The notes beneath the pieces are model-generated. The model did no database searches. It saw only the letters and a list, made by a program, of their open reading frames with translations, and was not told where the DNA came from. From assembly GCF_009730915.1 (NCBI RefSeq), contig NW_024086823.1, forward strand, positions 158,501 to 222,500: DNA of 64,000 nucleotides. Reading direction: 5' to 3'. The translations under genes were made by a program, and so were the position numbers. Below, one piece after another: positions 14,530 to 46,075 of this stretch (position 1 is its first letter; each line of letters begins with the position of its first letter). Source of the DNA: Dioscorea cayenensis subsp. rotundata. Its lineage: Eukaryota; Streptophyta; Magnoliopsida; Dioscoreales; Dioscoreaceae.

Positions 14530-14630
14530 TGTTTACCCCTTAAATTAAACTATTTTAATTTATATAATGTGTTTGCACTTATAATTTGTAGTTTCCGCTT
14601 AAATATTATTGATAGTTCTTTAATCCTTCT
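14530..14630 (+). repeat. 20-bp register intron units (copy A leader intron)
   Basis: CTTAA or CTTAT occurs at about 14539, 14579, 14599 and 14619, multiples of 20 bp apart, with TTTCCGCTTAAA in the last full unit. It lies upstream of the ATG at 14650, in a probable leader intron. Confidence 0.55.
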
Positions 14631-14649
14631 TGGTGAAGGTATTGGACAT

Positions 14650-16052
14650 ATGGCAACCAACCTTGTTAACGGCAGGTGTTATTTGGTCTCTATAGCGGAA
14701 ACGATTGCTGAGTTAAGACAAAACATGGGTTCTAGGCATTTGGAAATCATCCGGAGTACTCCTTTCGCATCATTAATGGAAATTGAACCTGTACTACAAG
14801 AGAGGGGATTGCTCGATGCTCTGTTGCAGAGATATGATGAGCGCTCCCAAAAAATTTAAAATTGGTGAGAGCTTGTTGACGTTTAGGCCAGAAGATGTAT
14901 TCATTATTCTTGGCCTCAGATGCGATGGGGACGCAGTGGTTTTCAAAAAGAAAAAGCCACATTCTGATTTTGAAGAAAAATATTTCTCAAAAAGCTATGA
15001 AAGACATAGGGAAGCTATAAAAAAAACTCTTAGCACACTAGTCCGGAAGAGGGGAGAATAAGAAAACTTTGTGAAGATATTGTTGGTATTCATCATGGGG
15101 ACCATGCTGTTCCCGAACTCATCATGTTCTGTTCCCAATTGGCTTGTAGACTATGTAGACGATCTTCCCGCAATGCGGCGCTATGCATCGGCGCAAGCCA
15201 CACATAAGTGGCTTATGGATGACCTCCCGCAAACGGCCGCCAGAGTTCAAGCAATATGCTCCGGTGAGAAGACAAATATTGGCTACTTGCGAGGATGTGC
15301 TGTCGCTCTAAATATTTGGTTCTACGAAGTAACTGGCACCGGCAAGAAGGTGCGATTTGGTAAGACTCCCCAGATCTTGTGTTACGGGGTGAACAGTTTC
15401 AAGAAGCAAGCATCCATCAGTTCATTGCTATCATCAGTCGAGGGGAAAGAGGTATTTAGTTTACACTTAACTTATTTAATGTCCGCTTCATAATATTCGT
15501 TTCTGGTTTAAAGTTTTAGTTTACACTTAAAATATTTAGTTTTCGCTTGAGTTTCCTTTTTTTTTCACTTTCAAAATAATGTTTTCCGTTAACTTTTAGG
15601 TTTTACACTTAAAAATTATACCTTTTCGCTTAAATATTTAGTGTTTACGGTTAAAATATGTAGTTTAGACTTACTATTTTAAGGTTCCGCTTAAGAATTA
15701 ATTTTTTATTGTTGTTTTAAGTTTTTCGTTTGAGTATCATTGCTTACCTTGACTGTATGTCATTTCCACAATACAGTTTTCCGCCCTCACCCCGACTAAC
15801 GCCGAAGAAGAAGCTTTCGTTAGGACAAGCCACCATGGAGAACAAGTGGTTAGCACAATACGTCTTGGCACAAAATCTGCGGAGAAATCCACAGGGAAAC
15901 GTGGACGGTCTCCCTCACCACCACTAAAGAGCCTACCACGTCGGGGTCGACGTGGTTCTGTTTCTGTTAATCCACCGAGGGGGGCAATTGATGAAAACAT
16001 TGGGTTACGCTTACTGAAAGGTTTTGAGAAGTTGGCCATCTCAACAATATGA
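14650..16052 (+). pseudogene. MULE copy A passenger gene, DUF1985/plant-mobile-like head; Ulp1 part lost
   Basis: The ATG at 14650 opens MATNLVNGRCYLVSIAETI. After one frameshift in an A-run near 14850 follow KIGESLLTFRPEDV, ILGLRCDGDAVVFKKKK, LLVFIMGTMLFPNSSCS, WLVDYVDDLPAM and RGCAVALNIWFYEVTGTGKK. The pattern (a membrane-like LLxFxxG block, then VDDLxxM, then a basic tail) resembles DUF1985/plant mobile domains found ahead of Ulp1 proteases in plant transposons; I infer that relation. TAA at 15059-15061 is an in-frame stop. Exon 1 ends at GT 15452; exon 2 starts after AG 15776 and is basic and Ser/Pro-rich (KSAEKSTGKRGRSPSPP). It stops at 16052, beside a short direct repeat that marks loss of the downstream exons. 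Confidence 0.7.
15460..15735 (+). repeat. 20-bp register repeat filling passenger-gene intron (copy A)
   Basis: CTTAA-like cores occur at 15466, 15484, 15505, 15526, 15546, 15568, 15588, 15608, 15629, 15650, 15670 and 15690. Spacing is 18-22 bp, mostly 20 or 21. Units read like TTTTCGCTTAAATATTTAGT on the sense strand. The array takes up nearly the whole intron between the GT at 15452 and the AG at 15776. Confidence 0.8.
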
Positions 16053-16064
16053 AAACATTGGGTT

Positions 16065-17610
16065 ACCTAGTCGGCGACAGTTTCATTGTAAGATCTACAA
16101 TTGTGATCGGACGCATGGCAGCGGCTGCAATGTAACTCGATCCTCTTTCGTCTAGGACGCCCAGGTTGCTTTCTCGTCACTGGCGATCACAAATGCAGTT
16201 TAAGATTTTCGTCTGTAGGCTTCCTTATACGCCAGTTTGTAATTATCGATGGTGAAGTAGCCGTTAATAAATCGATAAACATTGGTGTCTGTCTACATTA
16301 TTGCAGCGCAAGCGTGTTTTAATAGGATACTATAAACTTGCCATTTGTAACATAAGCAAGTTCTATTGGCAAGATCTATGAAGTCGCTGCACTAGTCAAT
16401 TACTTCATAATGATCATTGACACAATGACCTACATAAAGATTTTGGCTTTCCACAACAAGTATCTCTACCTTCGAATATATGTCCGGGCATAAGTAGGTC
16501 TCCCATTTGTTCGCTTGCTCACGACGGTTGCATAATATGCGCATCAACTTGAACCTGTATAACAAAGAACACGAACACTTAAACAAGGTTAAGCAAAGAC
16601 ACTGATATTTAAACAGAAACAAATATTTTTAAGTGGTAGGATACAAAATTAAGTGAAAAGCCGGATAGTTAAACATAGACAATGATTTTTTCATAGTAAG
16701 GAAATCTTTTTAAAGGATAAGAACAATTCTTAAGCGTTAAATAAAATCAACATTCGAATACCTTATGGAATCGACCATTTTCTTCACCGGTAAATTCCGA
16801 GCTTCTTTCATCCACGCATTGACGACTCCATGACATTTGAATACATCTTGCCCCAGCGTTCACCTCTGAACAGATAATTCGACCAATGTGACATATCCGA
16901 TTTATGAATCAACCACTGATAGGCTTCAGGTAATATGGCATGTAGTTCATTCACAATATCATCGAATTCTTTAGCCATGGATGCCCACGCAATACGAAAG
17001 TATATGGACCAGCACTCCTCCCTTAATACCTTCCCAAGTCTGACATTGGCTTTTATAAAATTTTCCTCCAAGTGTTGAAGGCAATATGTATGTGAGGAAG
17101 AAGGGAAGACTTTCGCAATGGTGTTCACAAGGCCCTTAAACCTGTCCGACATGAATGTAATTATCTCTTGATAATCTTCTTCATCGTATAAAGCATCACC
17201 AAACTTGAAAATGAACCACGTCCAATTGGCATCAGTCTCATTGTCGACAATACCGAAGGCGACGTGGAAAAAACCATTGTTTCCATCTTTGCCTTTGGTA
17301 CCCAATAGAGTACCCCGATACTTTCCAAGGAGGTGGGTACCATCGAGAAATAGCAGCGGCCTGCAAGCTTTCTTTAATCCCACTATACATGCACTAAAAG
17401 AAAAAATGCACATTTAAAATGCTCACTGTCTCTTTCCACAATCACAATGCTGTCAAGGTTTGTCTCCACCACATTATCCACGTACCAAAGCAACAAATCG
17501 TAGCTGGAGATGTCGCCACCGTCGAGGATCACCCGGGCATACTCTTTTCTTAACCAAGCCTTCTTCTATGAAATATGGACACCATGTTCCTGCAACATGT
17601 CCTTCTGAAT
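16065..17610 (-). pseudogene. MULE copy A transposase, broken
   Basis: Minus-strand order from 17610: IQKDMLQEHG (end of the DNA-binding region), SYDLLLWYVDN, then the MULE catalytic domain (17413-16808). That domain has FLDGTHLLGKYRGTLL with the first Asp, NGFFHVAFGIVDNET, ITFMSDRFKGLV with the second Asp, a CLQHL motif and FRGERWGKMYSNVMESS. After an intron come RFKLMRILCNRREQANKWE (16540-16480) and remnants of the SWIM region, DTNVYRFINGYFTIDNY (16300-16240), and of the CCHC knuckle (CSRCHASDHNCRS, about 16120-16080). Stops and frame changes lie in the N-terminal and C-terminal parts; the catalytic block alone is open for 201 codons. The PB1-like and most of the MuDR DNA-binding part is gone beyond 17610. 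Confidence 0.85.
16570..16750 (-). repeat. 20-bp register repeat in transposase intron (copy A)
   Basis: TTAA cores at 16589, 16609, 16629, 16649 and 16669 and again at about 16709 and 16729 are 20 bp apart. On the + strand they read TTAAGTG or TTAAAC, so the CNCTTAA form lies on the minus strand, in the sense of the transposase gene. Confidence 0.75.
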
Positions 17611-20650: not shown

Positions 20651-20659
20651 GTTTAGGAT

Positions 20660-21174: not shown

Positions 21175-22240
21175 TATCCACATTGACATTCACAACAAAT
21201 TTTAAAACCCTGCAAATAAAAATTCTCTTTGAATGTGTTATGAATGCTACCAACCCATTAGAGTCCGAACGGTTTGAGGACAGGCTTTAGCACTCAAAAG
21301 CCTCATTAGCCCGTAGCTCAGGTTGTTCTTAAGCAACAAATGGGAAGGTGGCATTCTAAAACATTTAAAGTTGAGCACACACACTTAATAAAAAAAACAT
21401 ATACAATCGCCATGAAAAGACAATTCATTATAGAAGAAAAATTCAGAAGGGTTTTCAAGTAGGAAAAATTCTGAAGAAAAATGAACAGAACTACATAACC
21501 TATAAAAATTAAACTAGAAGAACACATACACTATTAAAATAAATCCATTATCTGGGCATACTAGTGGACATACACATTAAAAGAAATAAATGAACACAAG
21601 TACATAACTAAAGGCAGAAGAAATAAATTCAAACAACACCACATGCACAATTAAAATAAATCCCTAATTTCATATTCTTCAATAAGAACATAAAACTCAT
21701 TGTAGAATAAAAATTCAAAAGGGTTTTGATGATGGAACTTAGGTTCGTGTTCTCCAAGTCAAGGTACAATGTTCTCTGTACCAAAGGTAAGAAGTAGCTG
21801 GACCAGGCCAGGCTCAAAACCAGTGGCAAGTCGAACTGGTGACTTTATATGAACTATAAACCCTCGTTCAAATCATCACTTAGCATCAATGAACACATGA
21901 ACGTCATCAAAGAATTAAATGAACAGAACTACATAACCTACAAAAATTAAAATACAAGAACACATACACAATTAAATTTAAACCATCACAAGTGCATATC
22001 CACATTGACATTGACAACAAATTTTAAAACCCTGCAAATAAAAATTCTCTTTGAATGTGTTATGAACGCTACCAACCCATTAGAGGCCAAACGGTTTGAG
22101 GACAGGCTTTAGTGCTCAAAAGCCTCATCAGCCCGTAGCTCAGGTTGTTCTTAAGCAACAAATGGAAAGGTGTCATCCTAAAACATTCAAAGGTGAGCAC
22201 ACACACTTAATAAAAAAAACATATACAATAGCCATGAAAA
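21175..22240. repeat. Two direct copies of a 240-bp block about 815 bp apart
   Basis: The block with CATATCCACATTGACATT, GCAAATAAAAATTCTCTTTG and CGTAGCTCAGGTTGTTCT runs at about 21172-21410 and again at about 21987-22230 with few differences. The DNA between is AT-rich and non-coding. This may be a duplicated sub-terminal region of the neighbouring MULE. Confidence 0.7.
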
Positions 22241-23330
22241 GAAAATTTAGTAAACACATTGTTCAAAATGCACATTCTATTCAATTAAAGACAAAATAAA
22301 AATCAAATGACATAATTATAATTTAACACACTTCATAAAATAAAACCAAAACATCACAAGGAAAATAGACAAACCATTACAAACTTATGAAGATGTAAAG
22401 AGAGGAAAATGAAGAAACCAGTAGAAAAACAGAAACTTTGGAGTTCAAATTAAATACATAACTTAAACTTTTAAATAACAAATGGATGAAAAGAACATAT
22501 ACAATGGGCATGAAAAGAAAATTCAGCAAACACATTGCTTAAGCTTGAACTGCACATTCGATTCAATTAAAGACAGAATAAAAATCAATTGACAAAATTA
22601 TAATTTAGCACACTTCATTAAATAAAACCAAAGACATCACAAGGAAAATAGACAAACCATTTCAAGATCTAAAGAGAGGAAAACACAGAAACCCGTAGAA
22701 AAATAGAAACTTTGGAGTTCAAATTCAATACATAACTTAAACTTTGTAAATAACAAACGGATGAAAAGAACATATACAATGGGCATGAAAAGAAAATTCA
22801 GCAAACACATTGCTTAAGCTTAAAATGCACATTCTATTCAATTAAAGACAAAATAAAAATCAATTGACAAAATTATAATTTAATACACTTCATTAAATAA
22901 AACCAAAGACATTATAAGGAAAATAGACAAACCATTACAAACTTATGAAGATCTAAAGAGAGGAAAACAGAGAAACCAGTAGAAAAACAGAAACTTTGGA
23001 GTTCAAATTCAATACATAACTTAAACTTTTAAATAACAAACGGATGAAAAGAAAATTCAGCAAACACATTGCTTAAGCTTAAAATGCACATTCTATTCAA
23101 TTAAAGACTGAATAAAAATCAGTTGACAAAATTATAATTTAACACACTTCCATAAATAAAACCAAAGACATCACAAGGAAAATAGACAAACCATTACAAA
23201 CTTATGAAGAACTAAAGAACAGAGAAACCAGTAGAAAAACAAAAACTTTGGGGTTCAAATTCAATATAGAACTTAAACTTTTAAATAACAAACGAATGAA
23301 AAACAGAGACCTTCAACGCCAAATTAAGTA
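22241..23330. repeat. Tandem array, unit about 260-280 bp, four units
   Basis: GCACATTC lies at 22270, 22552, 22827 and 23086 (spacings 282, 275 and 259), and a related lone copy is at 21063. Each unit holds TTCAATTAAAGAC, ATAAAACCAAAGACAT, GGAAAATAGACAAACC and AACTTTGGAGTTCAAATT in the same order. No coding potential is seen. Confidence 0.8.
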
Positions 23331-23845: not shown

Positions 23846-24450
23846 CTTGGGAGATGAGTATGGGGGACCTGCAAGGGAGAAGAAGTGTTCGGTTAGGGGA
23901 ATACTAGGGTTTCAACATGAAAAGAGGAAGAAGGCGGTGGCTGCTCGCCTTGGGAGATGACTATAGGGTTAGGATTTGCTTAGCGAGAAGATGATGACTG
24001 TAGGGTAAGCGATTGAGTTAGGGTTTGGCTTGGGAGATGAGTATGGGTCGTCGCTCTGTGGGTGAAGACGATGGGGTTAGGGTTAGGGTTAGGCTTGGGA
24101 GATGAGCATGGGTCGCCGCTCTATGGGAGAAGACGATCGGGTAAGGGTTAGGGTTTCGTTAGGGTTTGGCTTGGTAGATGAGTGGCCGCTACTCTGTGGG
24201 AGAAGACGGTGAGGTTGGGGTTAAGGTTTCGTTAGGGTTTCGCTTGGGAGATGAGTGGTCGCCGCTCTGTGGGAGAAGACGGTGGGGTTAGGGTTAGGGT
24301 CTCGTTAGGGTTTAGCTTGGGAGATGAGTGGTCGCCGCTCTGTGGGAGAAGACGGTGGGGTTAGGGTTAGGGTCTCGTTAGGGTTTAGCTTGGGAGATGA
24401 GTGTGCACCGCTCTGTGGGAAAAGACGATGGGGTTTAGGGTTAGGGTTCG
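23846..24450. repeat. 73-bp minisatellite with interstitial telomere-like motifs
   Basis: GGGAGATGAG or its variant lies at 24032, 24097, 24173, 24246, 24319 and 24392; the last three spacings are exactly 73 bp. Looser copies occur at 23849 and 23951. Each unit ends in runs such as GGGGTTAGGGTTAGGG and GTTAGGGTTT, resembling plant TTTAGGG telomere repeats mixed with TTAGGG. The other part reads CGCTCTGTGGGAGAAGACG. Confidence 0.85.
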
Positions 24451-29295: not shown

Positions 29296-29299
29296 GTAA

Positions 29300-31673: not shown

Positions 31674-31724
31674 ACGTGGTGAAAGCGGGACATCCATAGT
31701 TAAAATAAACATTATTTTTCACTA

Positions 31725-31766
31725 GATATGCTCAAACAAAAAAGATTGTATACTCAATAAGAAATA
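31725..31766. repeat. Left part of a 76-bp target-site tandem repeat
   Basis: This segment, from GATATGCTCAAA to TAAGAAATA, matches 37980-38020. Together with 37947-37979 it forms one unit, interrupted by MULE copy C. Bases 31758-31766 (TAAGAAATA) are the left target duplication. Confidence 0.8.
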
Positions 31767-32486
31767 GTGGAAATTGCCAAAAAAATTCTCTAAGTTTGCA
31801 ATATTGCCAAAAACAACCCGTTAGTTTTGCAATCCCTAAAAACTCCTTCCTTTTAAACTTTATATTTTTCAAACCCCCAAAGCATGTAACGGATGTCAAC
31901 GGAGTGATTTTCAAATTTTATGGATGAAAATGCCCTTGCATGGGGAGTCATGGCTGCAGCCATTTCAGCGGTTTGAGAGGAAGTGGGGGGGTTTTTCCGT
32001 AGGGTAACCCCAAGAGACGAATTTACTGGAGCCGTTACTTGTTTTTCTCAACTCGCGTCTTCAGCTTTTCCATTTCCGAAGCTGTCTCCGAAGTTGTCTC
32101 TACCGGCGAACCTCTGTAATTGCAGCTTTTCCCTTTCCACCGGTATCTCAAAGGAGAAGTCCCGCGCAAGTAGTTGGCATTTCATCAGTTTGCAATCTAA
32201 GCTATTGAGTATCGTTTTATGTTAACTGTTTTGTTACAAAGAAAGATTTTTCGGTTTTGTTTTGTGCTCCTATTTTTGTTGGAAGATATTGAAGTCTGCA
32301 GGGGGATTTCTCGGCTGGGGTTTTGTTAGTCTGCAGGGCAATTTCTCGGCTAGGGTTTTGTTTTGTTTTGCATTTTCGTCTGTATACACTATCAAAATAG
32401 TTTTTTTGTTTGTTATGATTTGTGTAATATTTATAATGTACATTTCCCCTTTCGTTTGATATGGTTGCAGTTTTACAAATGAGGTT

Positions 32487-32660
32487 TACGTTTAAGAAAT
32501 GAGATGTTACAGTTTAAATTTTGTTGTCTCTGTTTAAGTATTGTCGTCTCTGTTTAATAAACTGGGTCTCTGTTTAACAATTGATAACTCTTTTTAATAA
32601 CTGAGAGGTTACCGTTTAAAACCTTATACTTACGCTTAAACATTTGTGAATACTGCATGC
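32487..32660 (+). repeat. 20-bp register repeat, leader intron of copy C
   Basis: GTTTAA or TTTTTAA cores lie at 32512, 32532, 32552, 32572 and 32592, with further units near 32614 and 32634. A typical unit is GTTTAAGTATTGTCGTCTCT. The array precedes an acceptor AG just before the ATG at 32694. Confidence 0.8.
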
Positions 32661-32693
32661 TGAATGTGTTGTTATTGTCGCAGGTTTGTGATT

Positions 32694-34632
32694 ATGGCGG
32701 TCAACCTAGTTAATGGGCGATGCTATTTGACACCGGTAGTGGAGACCTTAGCTGAATTGAAAGATAACATGACCCCTCGACACTGGGAGATCATCCGAAG
32801 GACACCGTTTGCAGCATTCACTGAGCTGGAAGCTATATACCAAGAGAGGGCCCTTCTTGATTCTCTATTGCAAAGGTACGATGGCCGCACCAATAAATTC
32901 AGGATCGGGGAAAGCCTGCTGAGTTTCAGGCCTCAAGATGTGACCCTCGTTCTTGGTCTGCGTTGCGATGGCGATGCAGTTGTCTTTCAGAAGAAGAAAA
33001 CCCGCTCAGCGTTCAAAGGGAGGTATTTATCAAAAACCTACGAGAGACACAGAGACTCCATCAAGAGCACTCTTGTGCAACTTGTTCGACAGAGGGGAGA
33101 AGAAGATGATTTTGTCAAACTCCTGATGGTGTACCTCATGGGTACAGTCCTCTTCCCAAATACATCATGCTCGGTTCTGAATTGGATCGTTGATTATATC
33201 GATGATCTACCCGCCATGGGGCGATAAGCATGGGCGCAGACGACGCACAAGTGGCTTATGGAGGACATTCTACAAGCAGCCGCTCAAGTGCAAGATAGAT
33301 GCGCCGGGAAGAAGACCAACACAAGGTATATTAAGGGTTGCTCGGTCGCGCTTAACTTCTGGTTTTACGAGCTGACCGGAACGGGGAAGAAAGTCTATTT
33401 CGGCAAGATCCCAAGGATGCTGTGCTACGGTGAAAGTACTTACTGAAAACAAGCGACGGTAGAAACCAGCTTGTCATCGCTCGAAGGAAAAGAGGTAATA
33501 AATCATGGACAATGTTTAACAGAAGTCTTTAATGTTTAAACATATTATTTAGCATTTAACTTTATTATTTACAGTTTAAAATTTATTCATAAAGGTTTAA
33601 ATAATTTGTTTTCCGTTTAAATATATTCTATAATGTTTAAATATATAAAAACTCTGTTTAAATATAGTTTTTATAGTTTAAAATGAATGATTTCGCTGAA
33701 ATTGCTTGGTTTACATATGTTTAGTTTACTGAGTTAGTTCCGGTGAATGCTGAAGAAGAAATATTTATTGGGGCCAACCGATGGATGGATGCTATTGCTC
33801 CGGAACCACTTGCTCGAAGGCAGGATGAGAGGGCAGTCTCTATCATGCGCACTCGACCCCGTTCTCCTACTTCCAGCCCACAACGCGCACGCATTCCTCG
33901 ACGCTGGAGAAACCCTCCCTTACCCCGCCAGATTGCAACAACTCCCCTACCATGACAATGACAGTCCCCCCGATTGTGGCAGCCCCCCGACCATGGCAGC
34001 CCCTCCGACCGTGGCAGTCCCACCGACGACATTAGGCGAAGATGTCACTGCAACTCTTATGCAGGCGTGCCAGATATTGATGACCGAATTTTCTTGGCTT
34101 GTCGCTCGGGTTGAGGCACTGGAAGGACGTTCACAATCGACTGCACCGTCTCTCCAAAGAAATGAAGCACCCGGGACGAACGAGGCGTCGGAATTGGACG
34201 ACAACGACATCATCTTGGTGGCCATTCCAAGACGACCACATTCGAAGAGACTTGCGAAAAAGAGGAGAACAATACTGCCTCTGTCTCCACCGCTGGCTGA
34301 CAATGAAACAATAGCAACACCATCGGCGGCTGATGCTGTTACTGAGTCTGTCGCCGTTGATGACATGGCCATGACGGTGGAGGATATCGTAGATGATGTG
34401 GCCGTTACCGCGATTGAGAAGATCGTTAACTCTCTTGTTAACAAAATCACCGACTCGGTGGAACCGGCTGCCGAGAGTGCGGCATCAAAGATGGACACAA
34501 TCCCTGAAGAACAAGAACAAGCTAAGGGTGTGTCTCCCGATGATGCTGTTGCCGTGGCCACGGTTGAGAAGATCGTTGAATTTGTTGCCGTGGCCGTGGC
34601 CGACAGTACCGCATCGAAGCAGGACAATGTCG
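32694..34632 (+). pseudogene. MULE copy C passenger gene, DUF1985/plant-mobile-like; Ulp1 part lost
   Basis: The ATG at 32694 opens MAVNLVNGRCYLTPVVETL, followed by KFRIGESLLSFRPQDV, LVLGLRCDGDAVVFQKKK, LLMVYLMGTVLFPNTSCS, DDLPAMGR and RYIKGCSVALNFWFYELTG, about three-quarters similar to copy A. TAA at 33225-33227 and TGA at about 33444 interrupt it. Exon 1 ends at GAG|GT near 33495, and the following intron is a 20-bp array. Exon 2 (about 33740-34632) begins NAEEEIFIGANRWMD, shifts frame near 33950, then gives a coiled, acidic region (MTEFSWLVARVEALEGRS) and a repeated VEKIVEFVAVAVADS-like block. At about 34633 it runs directly into the antisense of the transposase DNA-binding exon. Confidence 0.75.
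33505..33695 (+). repeat. 20-bp register repeat, passenger-gene intron (copy C)
   Basis: GTTTA or ATTTA cores are at 33514, 33534, 33554, 33574, 33595, 33615, 33635, 33656 and 33676, with spacings of 20, 20, 20, 21, 20, 20, 21 and 20. A typical unit is GTTTAAATATATTCTATAAT. Confidence 0.85.
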
Positions 34633-34639
34633 ATTGTCT

Positions 34640-35518
34640 TGTACAAGGGCCGGTCCTTGAGCTTCTTAATCACTCGTGCGCTTACCCATTTTTTGGACGC
34701 TTTCGGATGTGCCGCCGAACCTATTCCACCACCGCAAGTGTGTGACGGGTTGATTGTCTTGATTTTGAAAGTATTTTTATTATACTCTTTTGATGCATGA
34801 AGGCGCCAATGACAACCATCGGTAGCGCATTCCACAGTCACCCGATGTTTTTCGTTCTTTATGAATTTGAAGTCAAAATTCCGCTTGATTGCAAAATTTT
34901 GAAGTACGTCCCTGAAATGTTCAACACCATCAAAATGTTGTCCGATATCCAACGACAACACTTCAGAATGATCTGACGAGGAAGAAAGACATCCCACACC
35001 GTCAGGGTCACCATGGGGTTGAACGGGAGCGCTCGCAAAATCTGAATTCCTGCCAACACTTCAGTTAAATGAAAAGATCAATATTTAAGCAGAGAATAGA
35101 CTGTTTAAGTGATAAAGTAAATATTTAAACATTAAATTAAATAGTTAAACAGTGAACAATTAACTTAAACAAATAGTACAATATTTTAACCAGTGACTGG
35201 CATATTTAAACAATAATGAACCTATATAACTGGATCAAATAAAAGAGAAGGAACTTACAATGAGAAAAACTCGTTTTCGTTATGATTCGACAATGGCACA
35301 CTGTCTGTCTCGACAACAAGATCAACTACAGCGCATTTGAAGATGGAGTGCACGTGACACATCCGCTGGAAGTCAACATCATTTTCTATTGGACAAACCG
35401 TTTTATATCCATCGGGTGTGATAAACTTCACCCTGACAAGGGAAACTTCGAGACCCCATCGCTCACATATCTCAGCTAACACCAACTCCCAAGAAGTCTG
35501 AGCCGTGAACATTAGCAC
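34640..35518 (-). pseudogene. MULE copy C transposase, PB1-like and DNA-binding exons only
   Basis: Minus-strand exon 35518-35270 codes for a PB1-like N-terminal domain (ICERWGLEVSLVRVKFITPD, TVCPIENDVDFQRMC). A 20-bp repeat intron (35250-35065) follows, then an exon from about 35050 with SLDIGQHFDGVEHFRDVLQN, FAIKRNFDFKFIKNEKHRVT, CHWRLHASKEYN and THTCGGG-type sequence (MuDR DNA-binding domain), then KASKKWVSARVIKKLKDRPL. It stops at about 34640 where it meets the passenger gene; the catalytic, SWIM and knuckle parts are absent from this block. Confidence 0.8.
35065..35250 (-). repeat. 20-bp register repeat in transposase intron (copy C)
   Basis: TTAAGC, TTAAGTG and TTAAAC cores recur every 19-21 bp on the + strand, so the GTTTAA or GCTTAA form is on the minus strand, the sense strand of this gene. 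Confidence 0.7.
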
Positions 35519-35829
35519 TCTTCCCTCCCCATTGTATCTAGCAATACCACAAAAACTCTACATAATATATCGGCCGAAAACCAAATCATACAAACCAAAT
35601 GAAAAGAAGAACAAAAAGAAGAAGAAGAAGAAGAAGATGTAAAGAACAAACAGCAATCAGAAAGGCAAACAAAAAAGTACACAATATATGCATAGAGGTT
35701 AGACTAGACGTGATGTGATTTGGCGGTATTTTTTTCCCTCCATTCCAAGGGCAAAAAAGGAAATATATGTCACTGTCGCGAGGAAGGCATATTGTCATCG
35801 CTCGAAGGAAAGTTCTCACCTTATCATGA

Positions 35830-36130
35830 GTCTCTGTTTAAACGTCAAGCTTTTTATGTTTAAACCGATACATATAGTGTTTAAAATAACGGTTAACTGT
35901 TTAAATAAATTCTATATCATTTTTAAAAAAAAGCAAACCGTTTAAATATAGTGATTTAACTGTTTTAAAATATATGTTATTGTTTAAATTGAATGCTTTC
36001 ACTGACATCGCATTGAAGATGGGTACCTCCTGGGTCACTGTTTAAACATCTTTATGTATTTGCTTAAACACCGTTGTCATTGTTTAAAGAGTAAATCGAT
36101 TATTGTTTAACTTTTTGTTTTGTTTACAAT
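35830..36130 (+). repeat. 20-bp register repeat in duplicated passenger-gene intron (copy C)
   Basis: GTTTAAA or GCTTAAA cores recur about every 20 bp, best kept at 36030-36125. They follow a copy of the exon-1 end of the passenger gene, in the same + orientation as at 33505. Confidence 0.65.
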
Positions 36131-36635
36131 GCCGTTTTTTGTTTCTCAAATTGTTTTTACTATGTCTCTGTTTGTTCACAAGTTATCATAAGTTGACACT
36201 CAAATAAGTTTGTTTGTTTAAAAAATTTAAACGTTTAGAATGGAGAATCTAATTAAATATCAGAAGTTCACACTCAAATAAGCTTGTTTCATTTAAAATA
36301 AAACATTTACAACAGTTACAACATTTATAACGTCTTCTTCGACCTTGGACACTCGCGAGTCGACCCTCGTTCGTCTATTAAGATTTCGGTTTGACTCACC
36401 AAGTATCTGTACATTCGAATGCTCACGGCGGTTGCATAACATGCGCATTAACTTGAACCTGCACAATGTAGAACACAACACATTAAAAAAGGTTAAGCAA
36501 ACACATTTATAAAAACGTGTATTAATCAATGTGTCATGGTCTGACTTAAGCGAAGATCCTGAGAGTTAAACACAGAAAGTAATATTTGTACACTGACGGA
36601 AGGTTGTTAAAGGGTAAGAATAATTCTCAAGTGAT

Positions 36636-36917
36636 AAATATCAACTCCGTCTTAAAGGATGTTTCATGATCTTCCTCCTCTAGAGAATCCTCCACAATCA
36701 CACAATAAGTGAAATCTTTCTTTTCTTACCCAAGTCGAAATGCCCGCTTAATTGCTTGCCCGTCATCCACCACTGGAGAATCCTCTGCATTCAGGCAATT
36801 ATGTGGGAATTTCGACTTGGGCAAGAAAAGATAGTTTAACTTGTTGCATGATTACGGCTGATTGATTCTCAAGATGAGGAGGATCGTGAGACATCCTTTA
36901 AGATAGATTTGATATTT
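36636..36917. repeat. 282-bp imperfect palindrome
   Basis: The left arm from 36636 and the right arm ending at 36917 share AAATATCAA, TCTTAAAGGATGT, GAGAATC, CCCAAGTCGAAAT and TAATTGC in mirrored order, meeting near 36775. Identity is high but not perfect. On + the right arm reads DEEDRETSFKIDLIFEFLSD and on - the left arm reads nearly the same, so it is an inverted duplication of old coding DNA. Confidence 0.75.
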
Positions 36918-37229
36918 GAATTTTTGTCTGACTCCAGCGAATATCATACACAAGAAGCAGATGAGGAGGAGGATGAGGATGAGGATGACGAGGAGTGGTT
37001 GTCCATGGGAAGGGTTCTTCCTTGTCATATATGGTGTGAAGTCCACAAGCAGGTTGACGCTTCATATCCGAGAAAAAAGGGAAACGCACAGTGGACCGAG
37101 ATTGACTGATCACAACGAACGGGTGTTCGGATATTTATATTACCGTGCACAAGAATTAATGCCATCATTAATTCTTATGTACGGAATACCATAACCTTGC
37201 CACTTGCCACCTGCCAACACTTCAGTTCA

Positions 37230-37410
37230 AACGAAGAAGATCAATATTTTACGCAGAGACATTTAGAATTTACACGTTAATATGAATAGTTAAACAGGTA
37301 AAGACAAATTTAAATGGAGACGACAACTATTAAACAAATATGTAATATATTTAAACAGAGAATAGCAAAGAGTTAAACAATACATAGAGTTAAACAGAAA
37401 ATATAGCAAA
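37230..37410 (-). repeat. 20-bp register repeat, duplicated transposase intron (copy C)
   Basis: TTAAAC, TTTAAA and similar cores recur about every 20 bp from 37265 to 37400, matching the intron at 35065-35250. Confidence 0.6.
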
Positions 37411-37946
37411 GATGGAGTGCACTTGACCAATTCGATGAAAATCAACTTCATTTTCTGTTGGAGAAACCGATTTATATATTTCGGGTATGATAAACTTCAC
37501 CCAGACTCGTTTCCTGAAACAAATTTACATCTATCATTACCACAAAAACCCTCCAAAATAAACACCCGCAGAATGGTCAAAATGATAGCAACGAAGAGAT
37601 TCTCACCGTATTACGAAACCGGCAGAACTGAAGTCGAACAAACCAAATGAGGAGAAATGAGGAGAAGAACAAGATGTAATGCAACTTCTAGGCATTGTCT
37701 ATCAGAAACCAAGCAGAAAGCCCTTGAAAAGGTTGGACATGATGTGATTTGGCGCTTTTTTTCCCCACCATTTTCAACGGCAAAAATGGGATCTCACAAC
37801 ATGGACCCATTTCAAGTGAACGGTAGGGGGTAAAAGGGAAGTTAAACACTAACGGAAGGGCTGTCCGGGGTGTGTAAAAGTAGGAGGAGGTTTTTGGGAA
37901 GTTTTGAAAATAACGATGGGTGAACAGTAATTTTTCCTAAGAAATA

Positions 37947-38055: not shown

Positions 38056-38725
38056 GGCACCTAGTCTACATTCAAGAGTTTCACACATTGTGCTTGGTGT
38101 AAGCAATGGCTTAGCTTCGATACGAGGTAAATTCTTCTGTTTCATGTTTTTTTTAAATAATGATTATAAGGAAATATTAGATATAAAAATCTAATTTATG
38201 ATACAAAATAAAATATTATAATTAATGAAATTATAATATTGTGTACAAACTTTTTAATAAGAAAATGAATAAAAACCTATGAATGATTTTGATTTTGTAA
38301 ATGAGTTGTAGAAAAGTCTGCCATATTTATTGTTATGTAATTAAATACTCTTTAACATTTTGTTTTTCTTTTAATTGTTAATTTTTTTAATAGATTTCTT
38401 GCTGGGTATTATTTCATGCACTTGTTTTATTTATTTTATAATAAAAATTACATGATGTTATAATTTCATTAATTAATATGCTTATTTATATTTGCCTCTT
38501 GTATAAAAAATGGTAAAAAGAAATTAATTAAAAATAAATAAATATTATCGTTCTTCTTAATTTTATTTTTCAATATAAAAAATCCTAGTAAGATGCATTT
38601 ATTTATAAAATCTTTTTTATTAATAATATTATTTTTATAAATATAGATAAACTACAAACCTCAACCAATAGTGTGGGATAGAATTAATTTTTCAACCTCT
38701 CATTTGGCACTTTCCACTCTCTTAT
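38056..38725. other. AT-rich spacer between MULE copies C and D
   Basis: No gene or named repeat is seen. Confidence 0.35.
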
Positions 38726-39738
38726 GGATAATTAAATTATTTTTTAGTCCCTGAAAGTTTCAAAACTTGCCTAAAAGTCCCTCTGACATTTGAATTTGAT
38801 AGACAATCCCTCTTTTTTTATTTTGCTGATGGTTTGGTCTCTGGCTGTAACTCCGTCAGTTAATTTCATGCAATATTCCATTTTTGCCCTGCTATTTGGA
38901 GGGAAAGCTGGCGCCCAATCTTGTCAACGTTTTGGAAAATAGTACGGTTGTCAGTTTTAACTTTACATGCTTCTTTAACCCAAGTTGCCATCTTCTTCTT
39001 CCATCATCCTTTTTGTTGGTTTTTTTTGTTTCCATCTACGCAGGATAGATAGATTTGTCTCTTCCCGGTTGTTCTGGTTTTATTTTGCACTCTTGTACTT
39101 TGAATATTTCTTCACTCGGAAGACAATTCATGTGAGCTTCTCCACACTTGTTTTGGTTTTATTTTTTGTGATCATGCAATTGTTGACCATGCTTTCTTCA
39201 TGCAAGCAGCCAATAGATACCTTTTGCGCAGTTGCTAGGTATAGGGGGAGGGCTGAGTCCTCCAGTTCACAACGCTGACACCTTGAGAGTCAATTCTAGA
39301 TGAGATATGTCAAAGATGGGGGCTTGACATTGGCACTGTGAAAGTGAAGTTTGTCACACCCGATGCAAACTGAACTATTTGTCCCATTGATTTTGAAATT
39401 GACTTCAAGCATATGTGCCAAAAAAATCAAATATTAAATAACGTTGCCGTTGACCTTATTGTTGATGTAGATGCAAATGTTGTAGACATTCCATTGTGTT
39501 CTTCACTACCGTCGTAAATATCCTTTCTTTGCTTGATGTGTAGTTATTTTATTTCATTCTTCTGCATTATGTCCATATTCATAAATAATATTTCTTGTAT
39601 AGTATATAGAGTCGTCACTTATTGTATGCACTTTCTGGTTAATTTCTGGAGATATTATTTACCATTATCTATTTCAACTTATATTTGTCCGTTTCTACTT
39701 AAAAATTTCTGTTTTCACTTAACATTAACCGATATCGC

Positions 39739-39811
39739 TTAAACTCTGCTTAAATGGAAGAGCGCTCGCTTTAGATGCGAGAGGCACGGGGTTCGGTCCC
39801 CCTTATCTCCA
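39739..39811 (+). tRNA. tRNA-Ala-derived pseudogene, anticodon changed to TAG
   Basis: Aligned base for base to a 73-nt plant tRNA-Ala, the sequence keeps the D-arm (GCTTAAATGGAAGAGC), the anticodon stem CTCGC/GCGAG, the T-arm and B box (GGTTCGGTCCC) and the 3' acceptor end ATCTCCA. The first nine bases (TTAAACTCT) do not pair with the 3' end, so no acceptor stem forms. The anticodon loop TTTAGAT gives TAG where Ala tRNA has TGC or AGC. It lies inside the first transposase intron of copy D, set into the 20-bp repeat. I take it as non-functional. Confidence 0.75.
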
Positions 39812-39930
39812 ACCATTATTTTGATTTTATTATTATTATTTTTAATTTTTAATTCCACAAAACTCTTCTTTTTGTGAACATTATATATTTCCGCTTAAAT
39901 TCCCCGTTTACGTGTAATAATTTATGTTCT

Positions 39931-40131
39931 CACTTAACTTTATCCGATTTCACTTAAAATTGTTATATTTCGCTTACACTTCTTTGATTTCGCTTACAAT
40001 TATGCTATTTCTCGTAAAAGTATTTGATTTCGCTTAAACTTGTCTGATTTAACTTAAATTTATCCGATTTCGTTTAAAGTTGTTTGATTGAGCATAAAAT
40101 GCCATGATTTCACTTAAACTTATCCGATTTA
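39931..40131 (+). repeat. Exact 20-bp register repeat, transposase intron 1 (copy D)
   Basis: Ten contiguous units of exactly 20 bp: C(A/G)CTTA starts at 39931, 39951, 39971, 39991 and on to 40111 with no indel. A typical unit is CACTTAACTTTATCCGATTT. Further units lie before the tRNA-like insert, with CTT at 39678, 39698, 39718 and 39738. Confidence 0.9.
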
Positions 40132-41220
40132 TACACTACAATGAATCATTTTCAGAGAGTATGTCGCTCAACAGGGGCACATTTCCACCCCATCAACAAC
40201 CTATGTGGGTTCTATCCATCCGACTTTCTTCAGAAGATCATGAGATTGTTTCAATGGAAGTCGGTGATAAGTTTTCTGACAGTGAACATTTTAAGATGTT
40301 CTTAGGAATTTTGCTATCAAACGCAATTTTAATTTTACATTCATCAAGAATGACAAGCAGAGAGTGACTGTCAAGTGCATGCTGAAGATTGTGAATGGCT
40401 TGTCCACGCGTCCATGGAAGGTAACCACGAGACATTTAGGATTAAGACGATGTATCCACCACACACGTGTGGTGGCGGTATTGGCACGTACTCACATCCC
40501 AAGGCATCAAAAAAGTGGTTGAGTGCACGTGTCATACAAAAGCTGAAGGACCGTCCCCTGTATAGGCCTATTGACATTCAGCGTGATATGTTGCGAGACC
40601 ACGGTGTCTATTTATCCTATAAACAAGCTTGGCTGGGGAAAGAGGTCGCCAAGGATGTTCTCCATGGGAGTGAGGTGGCGAGCTATGATTTATTGATGTG
40701 CTACGCAAAAAAGGTGTTAGTGACAAACCCTGGTAGCATTGCTATCGTAGAGAATGACGGTCCCTGTTTCAAGCGTGCATTTTTGCAAAGCATGTGTCAT
40801 TGGTTTCAAGACAGGATGCATGCCACTGCTGTACCTAGATAGAACTCACTTGCTCGGTAAATACGGGGGACACTTTGTTAGGTGCAACGGGAAAAGATGG
40901 GAATGATGGTTTCTTTCATGTGGCATTTGCAATCGTAGATAATGAAACGAATGCGAACTAGATGTGGTTCTTGTCAAAGCTTGGAGATACTATATCCGAT
41001 GATGAATAATATGTGAAACTTATTACCTTTATATCTGATAGGTCTAAGGGCCTTATCAATGATGTCGCGAAGATATTCCCTTCCTCACTGCATGCATATT
41101 GTTTGTGCCACTTGGAAGCAAACTTCATGAAAGCAAATGTCAGACTTGGCAAGTCATTGAAAGAAAGGGGCACGCCATCTCCCTATCACAAACATGGTAG
41201 ACTCGATAAGGTACACACGA

Positions 41221-41520
41221 TTTTGCTTAAATTAATTTGTTCCCGATTAAGTTTCAATGATTTCTCTTAATCTTAATTGTTTCCGCTTAAGTTCAATCGT
41301 TTACAATTAAATTATAATTTTTCCGATTAAGTTTTAATGTTTTCGCTTAATTTTAATTGTTATCGCTTAATGTTAAGCTTTCTCTCTTAAGTTACATCGT
41401 TTATGATTAAACTATAATATTTCCGATTAAGTTTAAATGATTTCGCTTAAGTTATATCATTTACGATTAAATTATAGTGTTTCCGATTAAGTTTTAATGT
41501 TTCCTCTTATTATTCCTTTA
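41221..41520 (+). repeat. Exact 20-bp register repeat, transposase intron (copy D), 15 units
   Basis: Fifteen units of exactly 20 bp fill 41221-41520 with no indel. The TTAA core sits at positions 7-10 of nearly every unit; the last reads TTAT. Units alternate between CGCTTAA and CGATTAA forms, for example TTCCGATTAAGTTTTAATGT and TTTCGCTTAATTTTAATTGT. The array spans the intron between the catalytic and SWIM exons. Confidence 0.92.
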
Positions 41521-42124
41521 CTTGTCTTTTGTACAAAGGTTTAAGCTAATGGGCATGTTGTGTCATCGACGTGAACAATCTCACAGATGGGAGAGACGTT
41601 TATATCCTGTCATACATCAAAAGATTGAGGAACTTGTTGAAGAGTCTCGCAACCTACTGGTCGGCCGTTCTGACGGTGACCATTTTGAAGTGGTTGACCA
41701 GAAGAACTACTGTATCAGTTTAAACTCTCGGACATGCTCATGTCGTAGGTGGCAGGTATATGGCATTACATGCAAACATACATGTGCGGCAATACTGCAG
41801 ATAGACACAAATATTCATCGATATGTTGATGACTACTTCACAGTGGACTCTTACCGACAAGCATATGCAGAAGCCATATTCCTAGTACCAGATAATGACA
41901 AACCAGATGATTTAAACCGTGAACTACTTGTGCACTCTCCAATCACCAAGAAGCTAGTTGGTCGTCCAAGATGGAAGCGTCTAGAGTCACAAGCATCAAT
42001 CGTTAGCGAATTACGATGTAGCCGTTGCCATGATGCTGGTCATAACCGTAGATCCTGTAATGCATCGATAGCTGATTGACTATATGATGTTATTTACATG
42101 TAGCTTGCCACAACAAAAGCAGTA

Positions 42125-42225
42125 TATTTTAATTTTAAGTGAAAACAACTAATTTTAACTAATATGAATGAAGTTTAAGCAGTATGAATTAATTTTAACT
42201 AAGAACGATTCTTTTTAAGTAGACA
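42125..42225 (-). repeat. 20-bp register repeat between the convergent genes (copy D)
   Basis: TTAAGT, TTAACT, TTAAGC, TTAACT and TTAAGT lie at 42135, 42155, 42175, 42195 and 42215, exactly 20 bp apart. The TTAAGTG form on + means the sense is that of the Ulp1 gene on the minus strand, in whose 3' region it lies. Confidence 0.8.
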
Positions 42226-43120
42226 AGCATATATGTGCATGACAAATAACTCTTGCTCAAAGCATCATAGTGATATGCAAATAAGTAAATGTCCAGGACT
42301 CAAAATAGAAAAAACGTCAAGTTAATAAGAATGTATTGTATGACATATCCCAACAGTTCTTTGATTCTCCGGAAGTTCGGCGACCACAGGTGATGCCATC
42401 CATCAATATGTGAGCCGCAAAACATAGATGCAAGTGCGGAATGTCCGTCTGGGGAAGTTTAAGTTTCTCGCCATCCAGTATTTGTTCAATGAAGTGCATG
42501 ACATAGACTGAACAATCGACAGTACCCGGCTTTTGCCGCAGGCAATTCCGTTCCTGTCTGAGAGGGTAAGCTTCCGTTGCGTTATCACCAAATTCAATTA
42601 CTAAACATATGTCGAATAGTTCCCGCTGTCAACAAAACATGCATCGGTCAAGCCAAACGGTGACAAAAATAGAAACAGTTTAAACGAATGAAAATATTAT
42701 TTACCATGTGGATGGTATCTTGATCATATTTTAGACTGACAACTGAGGAATAATGAATATATTCCTTCTTCGCTTTATCGAGTACGAGGAGATGGAAGTG
42801 ACCATGAAGTATAACAGGCATTAAGATGATGTCGACATGTGTAAACCGGTGTACGGCATTCGCCATCATGAGCAACAACTCTTCTCCCATGTGCTCTGAT
42901 GAGGACATCAAAAGAGCAAGTGGTCTTGTGATTGCTGCGCGCACCATGTAAGGGTACGGTTCGCTATTCATCTGTTCTATGATTATCAATATATATCCGT
43001 CCATCACATCATCAGCGACCATTTCCTTCCCTTCCAACAGAGAGTAGACACGCGCCCGAGTGGTGTATGACACATCATTCTTCCAGACATAAGTCCTACC
43101 GGATCAAAGCACGCAAAATT

Positions 43121-43400
43121 GAGTGTGAACATTGTAAATTAAGTGGAAATTTTATAACTTAAGTGGAAATATTTATAGTTAAGAGGAAAATATTGAAACT
43201 TAAGTGGAAACATTAAAATTTATGCGGAAATATGTAAGTTTAATTAAAAAAGTTTAAAGTTAAGAGGAAAATTTGAAACTTAAGTGGAAACATTAAAACT
43301 TATGCGAGAAAATGTAAGTTTAATTAGAATAACTAAAACGTAAGCGTAAGAAATTAAAATTAAGTGTAAACATTAAAACTTAAGTGAAGACAATTAAAAG
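43121..43400 (-). repeat. 20-bp register repeat, Ulp1-gene intron (copy D)
   Basis: About 14 units read on + as TTAAGTGGAAACATTAAAAC and variants, spaced 19-21 bp. Reversed, this is GTTTTAATGTTTCCACTTAA, the same consensus as the transposase intron at 41221 on the other strand. Confidence 0.85.
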
Positions 43401-43905
43401 TAAAAACAGGATGCTTAAATGTCCAACGGAAAGTTTAGAAAGTGGCTGATTGTCAGTTGTTTCGACTTTATTTAATCTCATGAATTCGGCAGGACATTTG
43501 TTCCGTGGTAACCTAAAAGTCTGAGTAATTTGTTCGGTCGGTACCACTGCCTGTTCTTCAATTGATGATGTCTCCGGTATTGGTTTTGGGATGACAACTG
43601 ACACTTCATCAGTAGTGTCAGTTGATGGTTTCGCGCCTATCGACGGAGACAATTTTGGACTTGGGGACTCAGTGTGGATGTCCTCCACCTTCGGTACCTC
43701 ATGACCAGTTGGTGAGTCAGTGTGGATGTCCTCCATGTTTCCTAACTTCTTATCTGAAGAAGGGGGTAGATTATTTCTCAAGGATGTTAGTGATTCAATT
43801 ATAGACTCGACGTCGACATTTTTGGCGGCGTCGACTAGTGGTACCACGGGTGGAGATGGCTTCGTCGGTTCGAAGAAGGAAGAAAAGTGGACAAGATGGT
43901 GCCGG

Positions 43906-44239
43906 TCCGGAGTGGGAAGGGATGGGGAAAGATGGCGCGGGTCCGGAGGGGGAGGGGATTGGGGAAGATGGTGCGGGTCCGGAGGGCGAAGAGAGTTGGA
44001 ATGACCGATCGAGTGCGGAGGAGGAAGTGGGTGCGGACAGCGGCTTGGTTGCTTAGGAGTGAGGGAGTGGGGATGACGGATCGAGTGCGGAGGGGGAAGC
44101 AGGTGGGTATGATGAGACGGGTCCGAAGCCGGAAGCGGATGGGGATGGCGCGGCAGGTGCCGATATGGAAGCTGGTGGGGATTGCTTGGCGGGTGCGGAG
44201 AGGGAAGGGCGTGGGGATGGTACTGTGGGTCCGGAAGAC
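43906..44239 (-). repeat. 36-bp coding minisatellite in the Ulp1 gene (copy D)
   Basis: T(C/G)C(C/G)G-type starts lie at 43906, 43942, 43978, 44014, 44050, 44086, 44122, 44158, 44194 and 44230, exactly 36 bp apart throughout. Each unit gives 12 residues rich in Ser, Pro and Ala (for example SGPAPSSPIPSP) on the minus strand, so the frame is kept. Confidence 0.9.
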
Positions 44240-44889
44240 GAAGTCGATGAAGATGGAATTGAGTTTGTCTTGACTTTGGCCTTTCAGGTAATTTTTGGAG
44301 GCCGTTCTTCTGGTCGGCAATCAGCTTGTGAAATCGCAGACCTTGTGGATCGTCTTGTAACTAGCTTGAGAGGAGCATCGTCAGAATCATTAGATGCGGA
44401 AAGAGGCAATGGTTGTCTTCGCCTACTGACAACCTTCTTCACTAGACTTCTCTTGGTGGCCGCTTGTTTCGGCGGCAAATCCTTGGTGTCGTTAGCTATC
44501 GGTGTGACAATGGAAGGGACACGACCCTCAATTACTTCAACTCTGGTTTGAAGCCCACCAACAGTTTTGGACAACTTCTCAAAACTTTTCAGTAAACATA
44601 ACCCAATGTCTTCATCAACTACCCCCCTTGGTGGATTAACCGAAACATAACCACGTCAACCCCGACGTGGTGGGCTCCTCGGTGGGGAGGGAGACCATCC
44701 ATGTTTCCGTGTGGATTTCTCCCCAGATTTTGTGCCAAGACGTATTGTGCTAGCCACTTGTTCTCCACTGTGGCTTGTCCTGACGAAAGCTTCTTCTTTC
44801 GGCGTTAGCCGGGGCGAGGGCGGAAAACTGTAATGCGGAAATGACATATAGTCAAGGTAAACAATGATACTCAAACGAAAAACTAAAAA

Positions 44890-45140
44890 CAACAATAAAA
44901 AATTAATTCTTAAGTGGAACCTTAAAACATTAAGTCTAAACTACATATTTTAACCGTAAACACTAATTTATTTAGCGAAAAAATATATTTTAAGTGTAAA
45001 ACCTAAAATTTAACTGAAAACATTTATTTGCAAGTGAAAAATCGAAAACTTAAGTGAAAACTAAATATTTTAAGTGTAAACTAACCATTTAAAGCGGAAA
45101 AAAAATTATTAAGCGGAAACTAAATAAGTTAAGCGTAAAC
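44890..45140 (-). repeat. 20-bp register repeat, passenger-gene intron (copy D)
   Basis: TTAAG or TTTAA cores lie at about 44910, 44931, 44951, 44971, 44991, 45011, 45031, 45051, 45071, 45091, 45110 and 45130. It is the counterpart of the copy A intron at 15460-15735. Confidence 0.85.
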
Positions 45141-45995
45141 TAAATACCTCTTTCCCCTCGATTAATGATAGCAATAAACCGATGGATGCTTGCTTCTTGA
45201 AACTGTTCAGCCCGTAACACAGGATCCGGGGAGTCTTACCAAATCACACCCTCTTGCCGGTGCCAGTTACTTTGTAGAACCAAATATTTAGAGCGACAAT
45301 ACATCCTCTCAAGTAGCCAGTGTTTGTCTTCTCACTAGAGCATCTTGCTTGAACTCTGGCGGCCGTTTGCGGGACGTCATCCATAAGCCACTTATGTGTG
45401 GCTTGCGCCCATGCATAGCGTCACATTGCTAGAAGATCGTTTACATAGTCTACAAGCAAATTGGGAACAGAACATGATGAGTTCGGGAACAGCATGGTCC
45501 CATGGTGAATACCAACAATATCTTCACAAAGTTTTCTTCTACTTCCCTCATCCTGACTAGTGTGCTAAGAGTTTTTTTTTTGATAGCTTCCCTATGTCTT
45601 TCATAGGTTTTCGAGAAATATTTTTCTTCAAATTCTGAATGTGGCTTTCTCTTTTTGAAAATCACTGCATCCCCATCGCATCTGAGACCAAGAATAATGG
45701 ATACATTTTCGGCCCAAAACATCAACAAGCTCTCACCAATTTAAAATTTTTGGGATCGCTAATCATATCTCTGCAACAGAGCATCGAGCAATCCCCTCTC
45801 TTTTAGTACAGGTTCAATTTCCATTAACGATGCGAAAGGAGTACTCCGGATGATTTCCAAATGTCTAGAACTCATGTTTTGTCTTAACTCAGCAATCGTT
45901 TCCACTATGGAGACCAAATAACACCTGCCGTTTACAAGGTTGGTTGCCATATGTCCAATACCTTCACCAAGACGAAAGCATTAACAAACTATCAA

Positions 45996-46075
45996 TAAGT
46001 TTTAAGCGAAAACTAGAAATTATAAGTGGAAACACATTTATTTAAATGAAAACTGATTAATTTAAGGGGTAAACA
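45996..46075 (-). repeat. 20-bp register repeat, leader intron (copy D)
   Basis: TTAAGCG, ATAAGTGG, TTAAATG and TTAAGGGG lie at 46002, 46022, 46042 and 46062, upstream of the head exon on the minus strand. Confidence 0.75.

Follow-up and report, generated by a model that had tools for sequence, protein, structure and literature searches.

The closest described precedents for the repeat arrays reported here are the VANDAL elements of Arabidopsis, in which anti-silencing by a transposon's own DNA-binding protein has so far been worked out. The VANDAL21 protein VANC21 binds the motif YAGTATTAY, copies of which share one orientation and are dense, often tandem, both in the introns of two genes, VANC21 and VANB21, and upstream of a third, VANA21; VANC21 also removes DNA methylation. 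VANC proteins carry DUF1985, and VANC6 has other motifs (Hosaka et al. 2017, PMC5735166). Some VANC genes carry Ulp1 (PMC13317346), VANC targets in Arabidopsis overlap those of small-RNA-directed methylation in the same non-coding stretches (PMC10398659), and monocot clades of Mutator-like elements (MULEs) include PMD genes, which in some cases run antisense to the transposase (Dupeyron et al. 2019, PMC6446971). Here we describe a 64,000-nucleotide stretch of yam DNA (Dioscorea cayenensis subsp. rotundata, contig NW_024086823.1, positions 158,501 to 222,500 of the forward strand; hereafter the window), in which most introns of two genes, a transposase gene and an Ulp1-carrying passenger gene, are wholly or partly filled with a degenerate 20-bp unit in three copies (A, C, and D) of one MULE family. 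The yam element appears to have the same set of parts as VANDAL/VANC, and we therefore take its arrays to be docking sites of the Ulp1-linked protein that it encodes, a sequence-specific, VANC-like anti-silencing factor that would bind them as clustered sites; we give this reading about an even chance.

The yam family resembles VANDAL21/VANC21 and VANDAL6/VANC6 as a MULE with a transposase and a putative DUF1985-type protein, and VANDAL21 also in its dense same-orientation motifs, often in tandem, in the introns of two genes and other non-coding parts, which differ between subfamilies (PMC5735166). Such arrays are present here in introns and other non-coding parts, with none found at the element ends. 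VANDAL motifs, however, are YAGTATTAY or AGTTGTCC/AC, lie also at the ends, and have repeats that change fast (PMC5735166), whereas the yam unit is 20 bp long with a TTAA core. In further contrast to VANDAL21, PMD scores above DUF1985 in yam, an Ulp1 peptidase is attached, and the host is probably a monocot. KIU and Kaonashi share a VANC-type gene with Ulp1 inside a MULE and are said to recognize motifs in their own group's non-coding parts (PMC13317346), but they are described in eudicots (title of Sasaki et al. 2022), and the yam host is monocot-like. MULE-Monocots, MDR, and MUDRAVI2 likewise combine a SWIM transposase with a PMD gene, sometimes antisense, although the available text of that article leaves motif arrays and anti-silencing unmentioned and contains 0 occurrences of "tandem repeat" or "intron" (PMC6446971). 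MULE transposase and Ulp1 passenger also occur together in Ulp1-carrying MULEs of melon, rice, and grapevine (PMC13317346). The short interrupted repeat cassettes (SIRC) of Arabidopsis also have short direct repeats separated by diverse spacers and lie in mobile elements, VANDAL among them, and in miniature inverted-repeat transposable elements (MITEs). They consist, however, of 2-8 repeats of 10-29 bp, and the portion of the article covered gives them neither a fixed 20-bp period nor a connection with a protein encoded by the element (PMC10342631). A preliminary description of this DNA knew of no described transposon that shares one short satellite between the introns of two unrelated genes, a statement that does not survive the tandem same-orientation motifs in the VANC21 and VANB21 introns (PMC5735166); VANDAL/VANC is a clear precedent, and what is new is that this variant is probably from a monocot, keeps a strict period, and differs in its core throughout a lineage. 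Among the papers that our literature searches listed, none describes such arrays in yam by title or abstract opening, and intron arrays in a monocot-like host were not met in the texts covered. To our knowledge, none are known in the Ulp1-carrying MULEs of melon, rice, and grapevine.

The arrays belong to the following elements.

13885-17600 (approximate limits): copy A, truncated, with a D-like Ulp1 half (plus strand) and a transposase part (minus strand) cut off at ~17.6 kb
31767-37937: copy C, with an internal duplication and parts of both genes, without a complete transposase
38725-46710 (approximate limits): copy D, with the transposase gene (plus strand) and a convergent PMD/DUF1985-like + Ulp1 gene (minus strand)
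11335-11734: MITE-like gene-less derivative of 400 bp, with an exact 9-bp target duplication, TAAAAAATA, at 11326-11334 and 11735-11743

Copy C is flanked by an exact 9-bp target duplication, TAAGAAATA, at 31758-31766 and 37938-37946, chosen from two exact 9-mer matches as the one adjoining the conserved ends. The ends of copy D were set by similarity to the derivative (38734-38818 and 46618-46705), and a clean, convincing target duplication sought there was not found. Matches to the MULE transposase domain (65 bits, cut-off 27.6, copy A), to the MuDR-type DNA-binding domain DBD_Tnp_Mut (78.3 bits, cut-off 25, copy C), and to the SWIM zinc finger (35.6 bits, cut-off 19.6, copy D) each come from a different copy; together with the ~9-bp target duplications of the derivative and copy C, they identify the elements, at the level of predicted domains, as MULEs. 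The spliced read-through of the copy D transposase gave 82 protein matches, 35 of them named Dioscorea, including the 18 best. Both genes of copy D carry frameshifts and stops in their reading frames.

The passenger product joins a PMD/DUF1985-like domain, with PMD scores of 38.1 and 40.7 bits (cut-off 34.9) and DUF1985 E-values of 1.7e-6 and 5.3e-7, to an Ulp1 (C48) peptidase, which scores 43.8 bits (cut-off 20.7) in the spliced exons 4-5 of copy D. With a predicted C48 peptidase gene inside the element and GT-AG splice sites, the preliminary assignment to an intron-bearing, Ulp1-carrying MULE is upheld. A structure of the PMD/DUF1985 domain predicted from one sequence was unusable (mean predicted local distance difference test score, 37.2). 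In a weak alignment of the copy D peptidase (window 42648-43103, minus strand) with SENP1 (E 0.0024), the His and Cys of the triad align and the Asp position holds a Ser, which may concern this one copy only, D being decayed.

Two further observations touch the copies. Copy A is apparently chimeric at 16040-16510, its Ulp1 half being near D and its transposase part nearer C (81% over 98 bp), with the two joined at a short shared stretch. A fragment of the Ulp1 gene at 5502-6290 (plus strand) comprises exon 3 followed by the beginning of intron 3, whose GT donor (6256-6257) is intact, is ~88% like D over 426 bp, shows no array after its intron 3 start, and has flanks that look unlike the family's ends.

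The 20-bp units that had been claimed for the introns of both genes in copies A, C, and D stand above shuffled controls by both autocorrelation and chaining of TTAA cores. For autocorrelation, 15 intervals (those of the preliminary description, its split interval counted as two, and the inter-gene array) were compared with 500 dinucleotide shuffles each. In 13 of the 15 intervals, no shuffle (0/500) matched the identity of the real sequence at lag 19-21; the exceptions were 14530-14630 (5/500) and 37230-37410 (48/500). When the best lag anywhere from 5 to at most 49 was allowed, no more than 3/500 shuffles did as well in 12 of the 15; this stricter test was failed by 14530-14630 (148/500), 35830-36130 (32/500), and 37230-37410 (387/500). 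Sense-strand chaining of TTAA cores at ~20 bp, in 17 arrays with nearly the same limits and 300 letter shuffles, gave 0/300 in 15 of the 17, including 35830-36130 and 37230-37410, which are weak by autocorrelation; the remaining values were 3/300 for 14534-14637 and 2/300 for 36470-36645. Of 132 spacings among the 149 chained units, 104 are exactly 20 bp. Because chaining favors 20 bp by design, we also counted, across the 17 arrays, the plain distances that separate exact TTAA cores: 20 bp occurs 66 times, 40 bp 46 times, and 60 bp 35 times, followed by 61 bp (19 times) and 41 bp (16 times), with every other distance within 4-64 bp found at most 11 times. The spacing is kept at 20 bp though units within an array are only ~59% alike, and higher-order periods of 40-100 bp (40, 60, 80, and 100 bp) occur inside single introns.

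Within the window, the signal is specific to the family. Chains of at least four [CT]TTAA motifs at 19-21 bp number 13 (a count that covers both strands, so that some arrays are counted twice), all within the family's elements, against 0 in each of 20 local shuffles. We also trained a matrix on copy D and defined a paired hit as one with a partner 18-22 bp further on the same strand. Arrays outside the family, which the preliminary description had named as evidence that would speak against its proposal, were not seen in the window by this measure (0/58 paired hits); 44 of the 58 lie in D, partly by construction, and 11 in A and 3 in the derivative lie outside the training set. The matrix gave no paired hit in copy C, whose core differs, and C was assessed by its TTAA chains. 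A general scan for 20/40-bp periods flagged 12 stretches, two of them outside the family (49661-49840 and 54201-54380); both reflect an unrelated 37-bp repeat in a 300-bp stretch that is present twice.

The introns and arrays of the three copies are as follows.

39514-40155, plus strand: D transposase intron 1, 642 bp, GT-AG, arrays at 39672-39751 and 39888-40126 with a tRNA-like insert between
41211-41538, plus strand: D transposase intron 2, 328 bp, GT-AG, nearly all array (15 units, 14 spacings all exactly 20)
42126-42225, minus strand: inter-gene array, 5 units in Ulp1 sense orientation, beyond both stop codons
42626-42704, minus strand: D Ulp1 intron 4, 79 bp, GT-AG, array absent, one unit-like stretch at most
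43096-43418, minus strand: D Ulp1 intron 3, 323 bp by exon-end positions, 14-unit array
44828-45147, minus strand: D Ulp1 intron 2, 320 bp, GT-AG, 12 chained units
45962-46271, minus strand: D Ulp1 intron 1, 310 bp, GT-AG, array confined to the 3' third (~45993-46072)
14334-14638, plus strand: A Ulp1 intron 1, 305 bp, GT-AG, array at ~14533-14631
15452-15776, plus strand: A Ulp1 intron 2, 325 bp, GT-AG, array from the donor to ~15742
16555-16761, minus strand: A transposase intron 2, 207 bp, GT-AG, 8 chained units
32460-32683, plus strand: C Ulp1 intron 1, 3' part, 9 units, acceptor AG at 32683
33495-33737, plus strand: C Ulp1 intron 2, 9 units, acceptor at 33724 or 33737
35050-35258, minus strand: C transposase intron 1, 209 bp, GT-AG, 9 units
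35815-36140, plus strand: C second copy of Ulp1 intron 2, degenerate, 13 chained units, weaker autocorrelation
36470-36645, minus strand: C transposase intron 2, very degenerate, 7 chained units, equaled by 2/300 shuffles
37215-37400, minus strand: C second copy of transposase intron 1, 6 chained units, autocorrelation not significant

Ulp1 introns 2 and 3 and transposase intron 2 consist mostly of array; the share is roughly one third in Ulp1 intron 1 (in copy A, ~100 bp of 305) and about half in D transposase intron 1. Most introns do carry arrays, but not every one is filled, as had been claimed: in A Ulp1 intron 1 and D transposase intron 1 the filling is partial, and the 79-bp D Ulp1 intron 4 has no array. 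Most arrays extend near a donor or an acceptor, and the introns are 44-49% T. The donor GT of Ulp1 intron 3 is lost in D and still present in the fragment noted above (6256-6257). At transposase intron 2, 9 of 11 Dioscorea protein models cross the predicted junction uninterrupted, and the other 2 join the same upstream exon slightly further on, which fits splicing of this intron, the evidence being models rather than RNA and leaving aside whether those loci have the intron. The array split in D transposase intron 1 is due to a tRNA-like remnant at 39748-39803 (plus strand; Rfam tRNA 23.4 bits, gathering score 29), which we take to resemble tRNA-Ala; a tRNA finder returned 0 genes for this insert.

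Arrays also occur where no intron does. The proposed array between the two genes (42125-42225) was recovered as five units at 42126-42225, beyond the transposase stop at 42077-42079 and the Ulp1 stop at ~42317-42319, and arrays absent from the preliminary list were found in copy C transposase intron 2 (36470-36645) and in the gene-less derivative (11335-11734). The latter holds 5 chained units with a D-type core on the minus strand (~11502-11581); at one end it resembles the Ulp1-side ends of A (79%) and D (75%), at the other the transposase-side end of D (80%), and in its middle array stretches. The inter-gene array, lying past both stops, and that of the derivative indicate that arrays are not bound to introns, and retention in the derivative indicates that they can persist without genes or introns, although the derivative may be a simple deletion product that kept part of an intron by chance.

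Instead of the one consensus first proposed, we found two lineage-specific units of the same 20-bp period. The core is TTTYCRCTTAA in copy D and TGTTTAAA in copy C; ahead of TTAA, D has TTTYCRC, and C has TGT before TTAAA. TTAA served as the anchor, so that its conservation is partly by construction, which does not apply to the neighboring positions. The base preceding TTAA is T in 41 of 53 C units versus 4 of 66 D units, with the same direction at all four intron positions common to C and D and the weakest contrast at transposase intron 2 (3/7 in C, 0/15 in D); the A transposase intron is mixed (T in 3/8 units). Over 117 units from C and D (leaving out A, the derivative, and two edge units), identity averages 0.587 inside single arrays and 0.532 between introns of one lineage; between lineages it averages 0.444 at the same intron and 0.450 at different introns. 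The higher identity within a lineage (0.532) than at the same intron across lineages (0.444) indicates that the element, not the intron position, sets the motif, which thus differs between related subfamilies. General C-to-T decay as the source of the C-lineage core is disfavored, with C still common at -6 (0.35) and -4 (0.46) before TTAA.

The arrays are also oriented. In A and D, every one of the 55 paired matrix hits is intronic and on the sense strand, and the two genes converge, so that array orientation flips along with them. In copy C, an asymmetric G two positions before TTAA is on the sense strand in 40 of 53 units. Spread across only five intron positions, this sense-strand orientation is suggestive, not conclusive.

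We propose, by analogy with VANC, that the family's protein would bind the arrays and cause loss of methylation, that the spacing would have a role in this, and that protein and array would co-evolve. Each unit would consist of (i) a conserved core of ~8-11 bp and (ii) a variable spacer, fixed together at 20 bp, or ~two helical turns, and this phasing could line up many protein molecules on the DNA. The abstract of the KIU/Kaonashi study is said to mention helical periodicity as well as eudicot origin. Introns, the inter-gene stretch, and gene-less derivatives would be places where sites, multiplied by slippage or unequal exchange, can accumulate without damage to coding sequence; joint change of protein and core would yield different cores in the two lineages, and the sense orientation may mean that plant introns tolerate only the T-rich strand. 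A more specific version, which we hold tentatively and as somewhat less probable, is that these yam MULEs have a monocot VANC-type system with a PMD/DUF1985-Ulp1 protein, whose recognition rule would include the 20-bp period (core plus two-turn phasing), whose intron arrays in both genes would have changed core along with protein specificity, and whose derivatives would keep a minimal protective array. If true, VANC-type anti-silencing would not be limited to eudicots; a differently built monocot case would show its generality, the two cores would offer a natural test of whether protein and array change together, and binding sites would also explain how introns can consist of a short repeat.

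Several observations weigh against a protein-bound array: (i) the DUF1985 matches, at 28.5 and 30.1 bits, are under the curated cut-off of 35.1; (ii) the element ends have no paired matrix hits, unlike those of VANDAL21; (iii) the intron 2 sequences of A and D show no unit gained or lost, whereas VANDAL arrays are described as very dynamic; (iv) binding sites need no fixed orientation relative to transcription, yet the strand bias of the paired hits is complete in A and D; and (v) the comparison covers only two lineages, from one window. Moreover, A and D differ at 18 of 209 core and 24 of 166 spacer positions (p = 0.10), a trend toward selection on the core that is not significant and for which unit starts were partly interpolated by hand in two decayed copies.

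The serious rival is neutral growth of a shared minisatellite, in which one functionless unit from an ancestral non-coding stretch reached other introns and multiplied by slippage or unequal exchange, its cores reflecting descent and local homogenization. Between A and D, identity in the Ulp1 half is 0.87-0.93, and intron 2 of this half, with three small gaps (0.891), diverges about as fast as the non-array part of intron 1 (0.879; array part, 0.871), with exon 2 diverging less (0.931); this rate, the non-significant core constraint, and the higher-order periods inside single introns are what a neutral repeat would give. Still, the missing constraint says little because A and D are decayed, and such a repeat must have come to occupy five intron positions in two genes as well as the stretch past the stop codons and the derivative, kept its 20-bp spacing at ~59% unit identity, and changed its core in the same way at the four positions common to C and D, however weakly at transposase intron 2. 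We consider it unlikely on balance. Slippage, an option already raised in the preliminary description, probably did make copies, judging by the 40-100 bp periods, but alone it leaves the core change, the post-stop array, and the derivative array unexplained; among the options of that description, a protein-bound array appears to fit best.

Another rival is a role in RNA, in which the T-rich unit, as a U-rich stretch whose CTTAA is like a branch point, would serve as a splicing or transcript signal, repeated so that long introns are still recognized. Plant introns need U-rich sequence, and CTTAA resembles the plant branch point; the intronic, sense-strand placement of every paired hit in A and D, the T content of the introns, and the position of most arrays near a donor or acceptor agree with this. 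We nevertheless find this role distinctly improbable, given the arrays beyond both stop codons and in the gene-less derivative, the 79-bp Ulp1 intron 4 that manages without an array, and the possibility that a common orientation at five intron positions is due to chance or descent; nor do we know of splicing signals that demand a strict 20-bp spacing. Least probable, and in our view very unlikely, is another DNA-level role independent of the Ulp1 gene (transposase binding, nucleosome phasing, or small-RNA production). Two helical turns per unit, the DNA-binding domains of MULE transposases (DBD_Tnp_Mut), and the overlap of Arabidopsis VANC targets with those of small-RNA-directed methylation (PMC10398659) would suit it, but the paired hits are missing near the element ends, where a transposase must act.

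Beyond the yam sequence, a pattern scan of viral contigs gave two matches, neither related judging by the surrounding DNA, a transposase scan of these contigs gave five pattern matches, none of them a relative, and plasmid records held no relatives. An AT-rich IMG/VR contig (L001, 1146-1230, minus strand) has a CTTAA-bearing ~20-bp tandem array of its own, with no sign of kinship to the yam family. Elsewhere in the window, about four copies of a 275-bp tandem unit lie at 22213-23302, and tandem units of 65-73 bp containing telomere-repeat-like GTTAGGG stretches lie at 24017-24448. Identical 300-bp direct repeats at 49606-49905 and 54156-54455 flank copia-like reading frames and probably mark a young long terminal repeat element.

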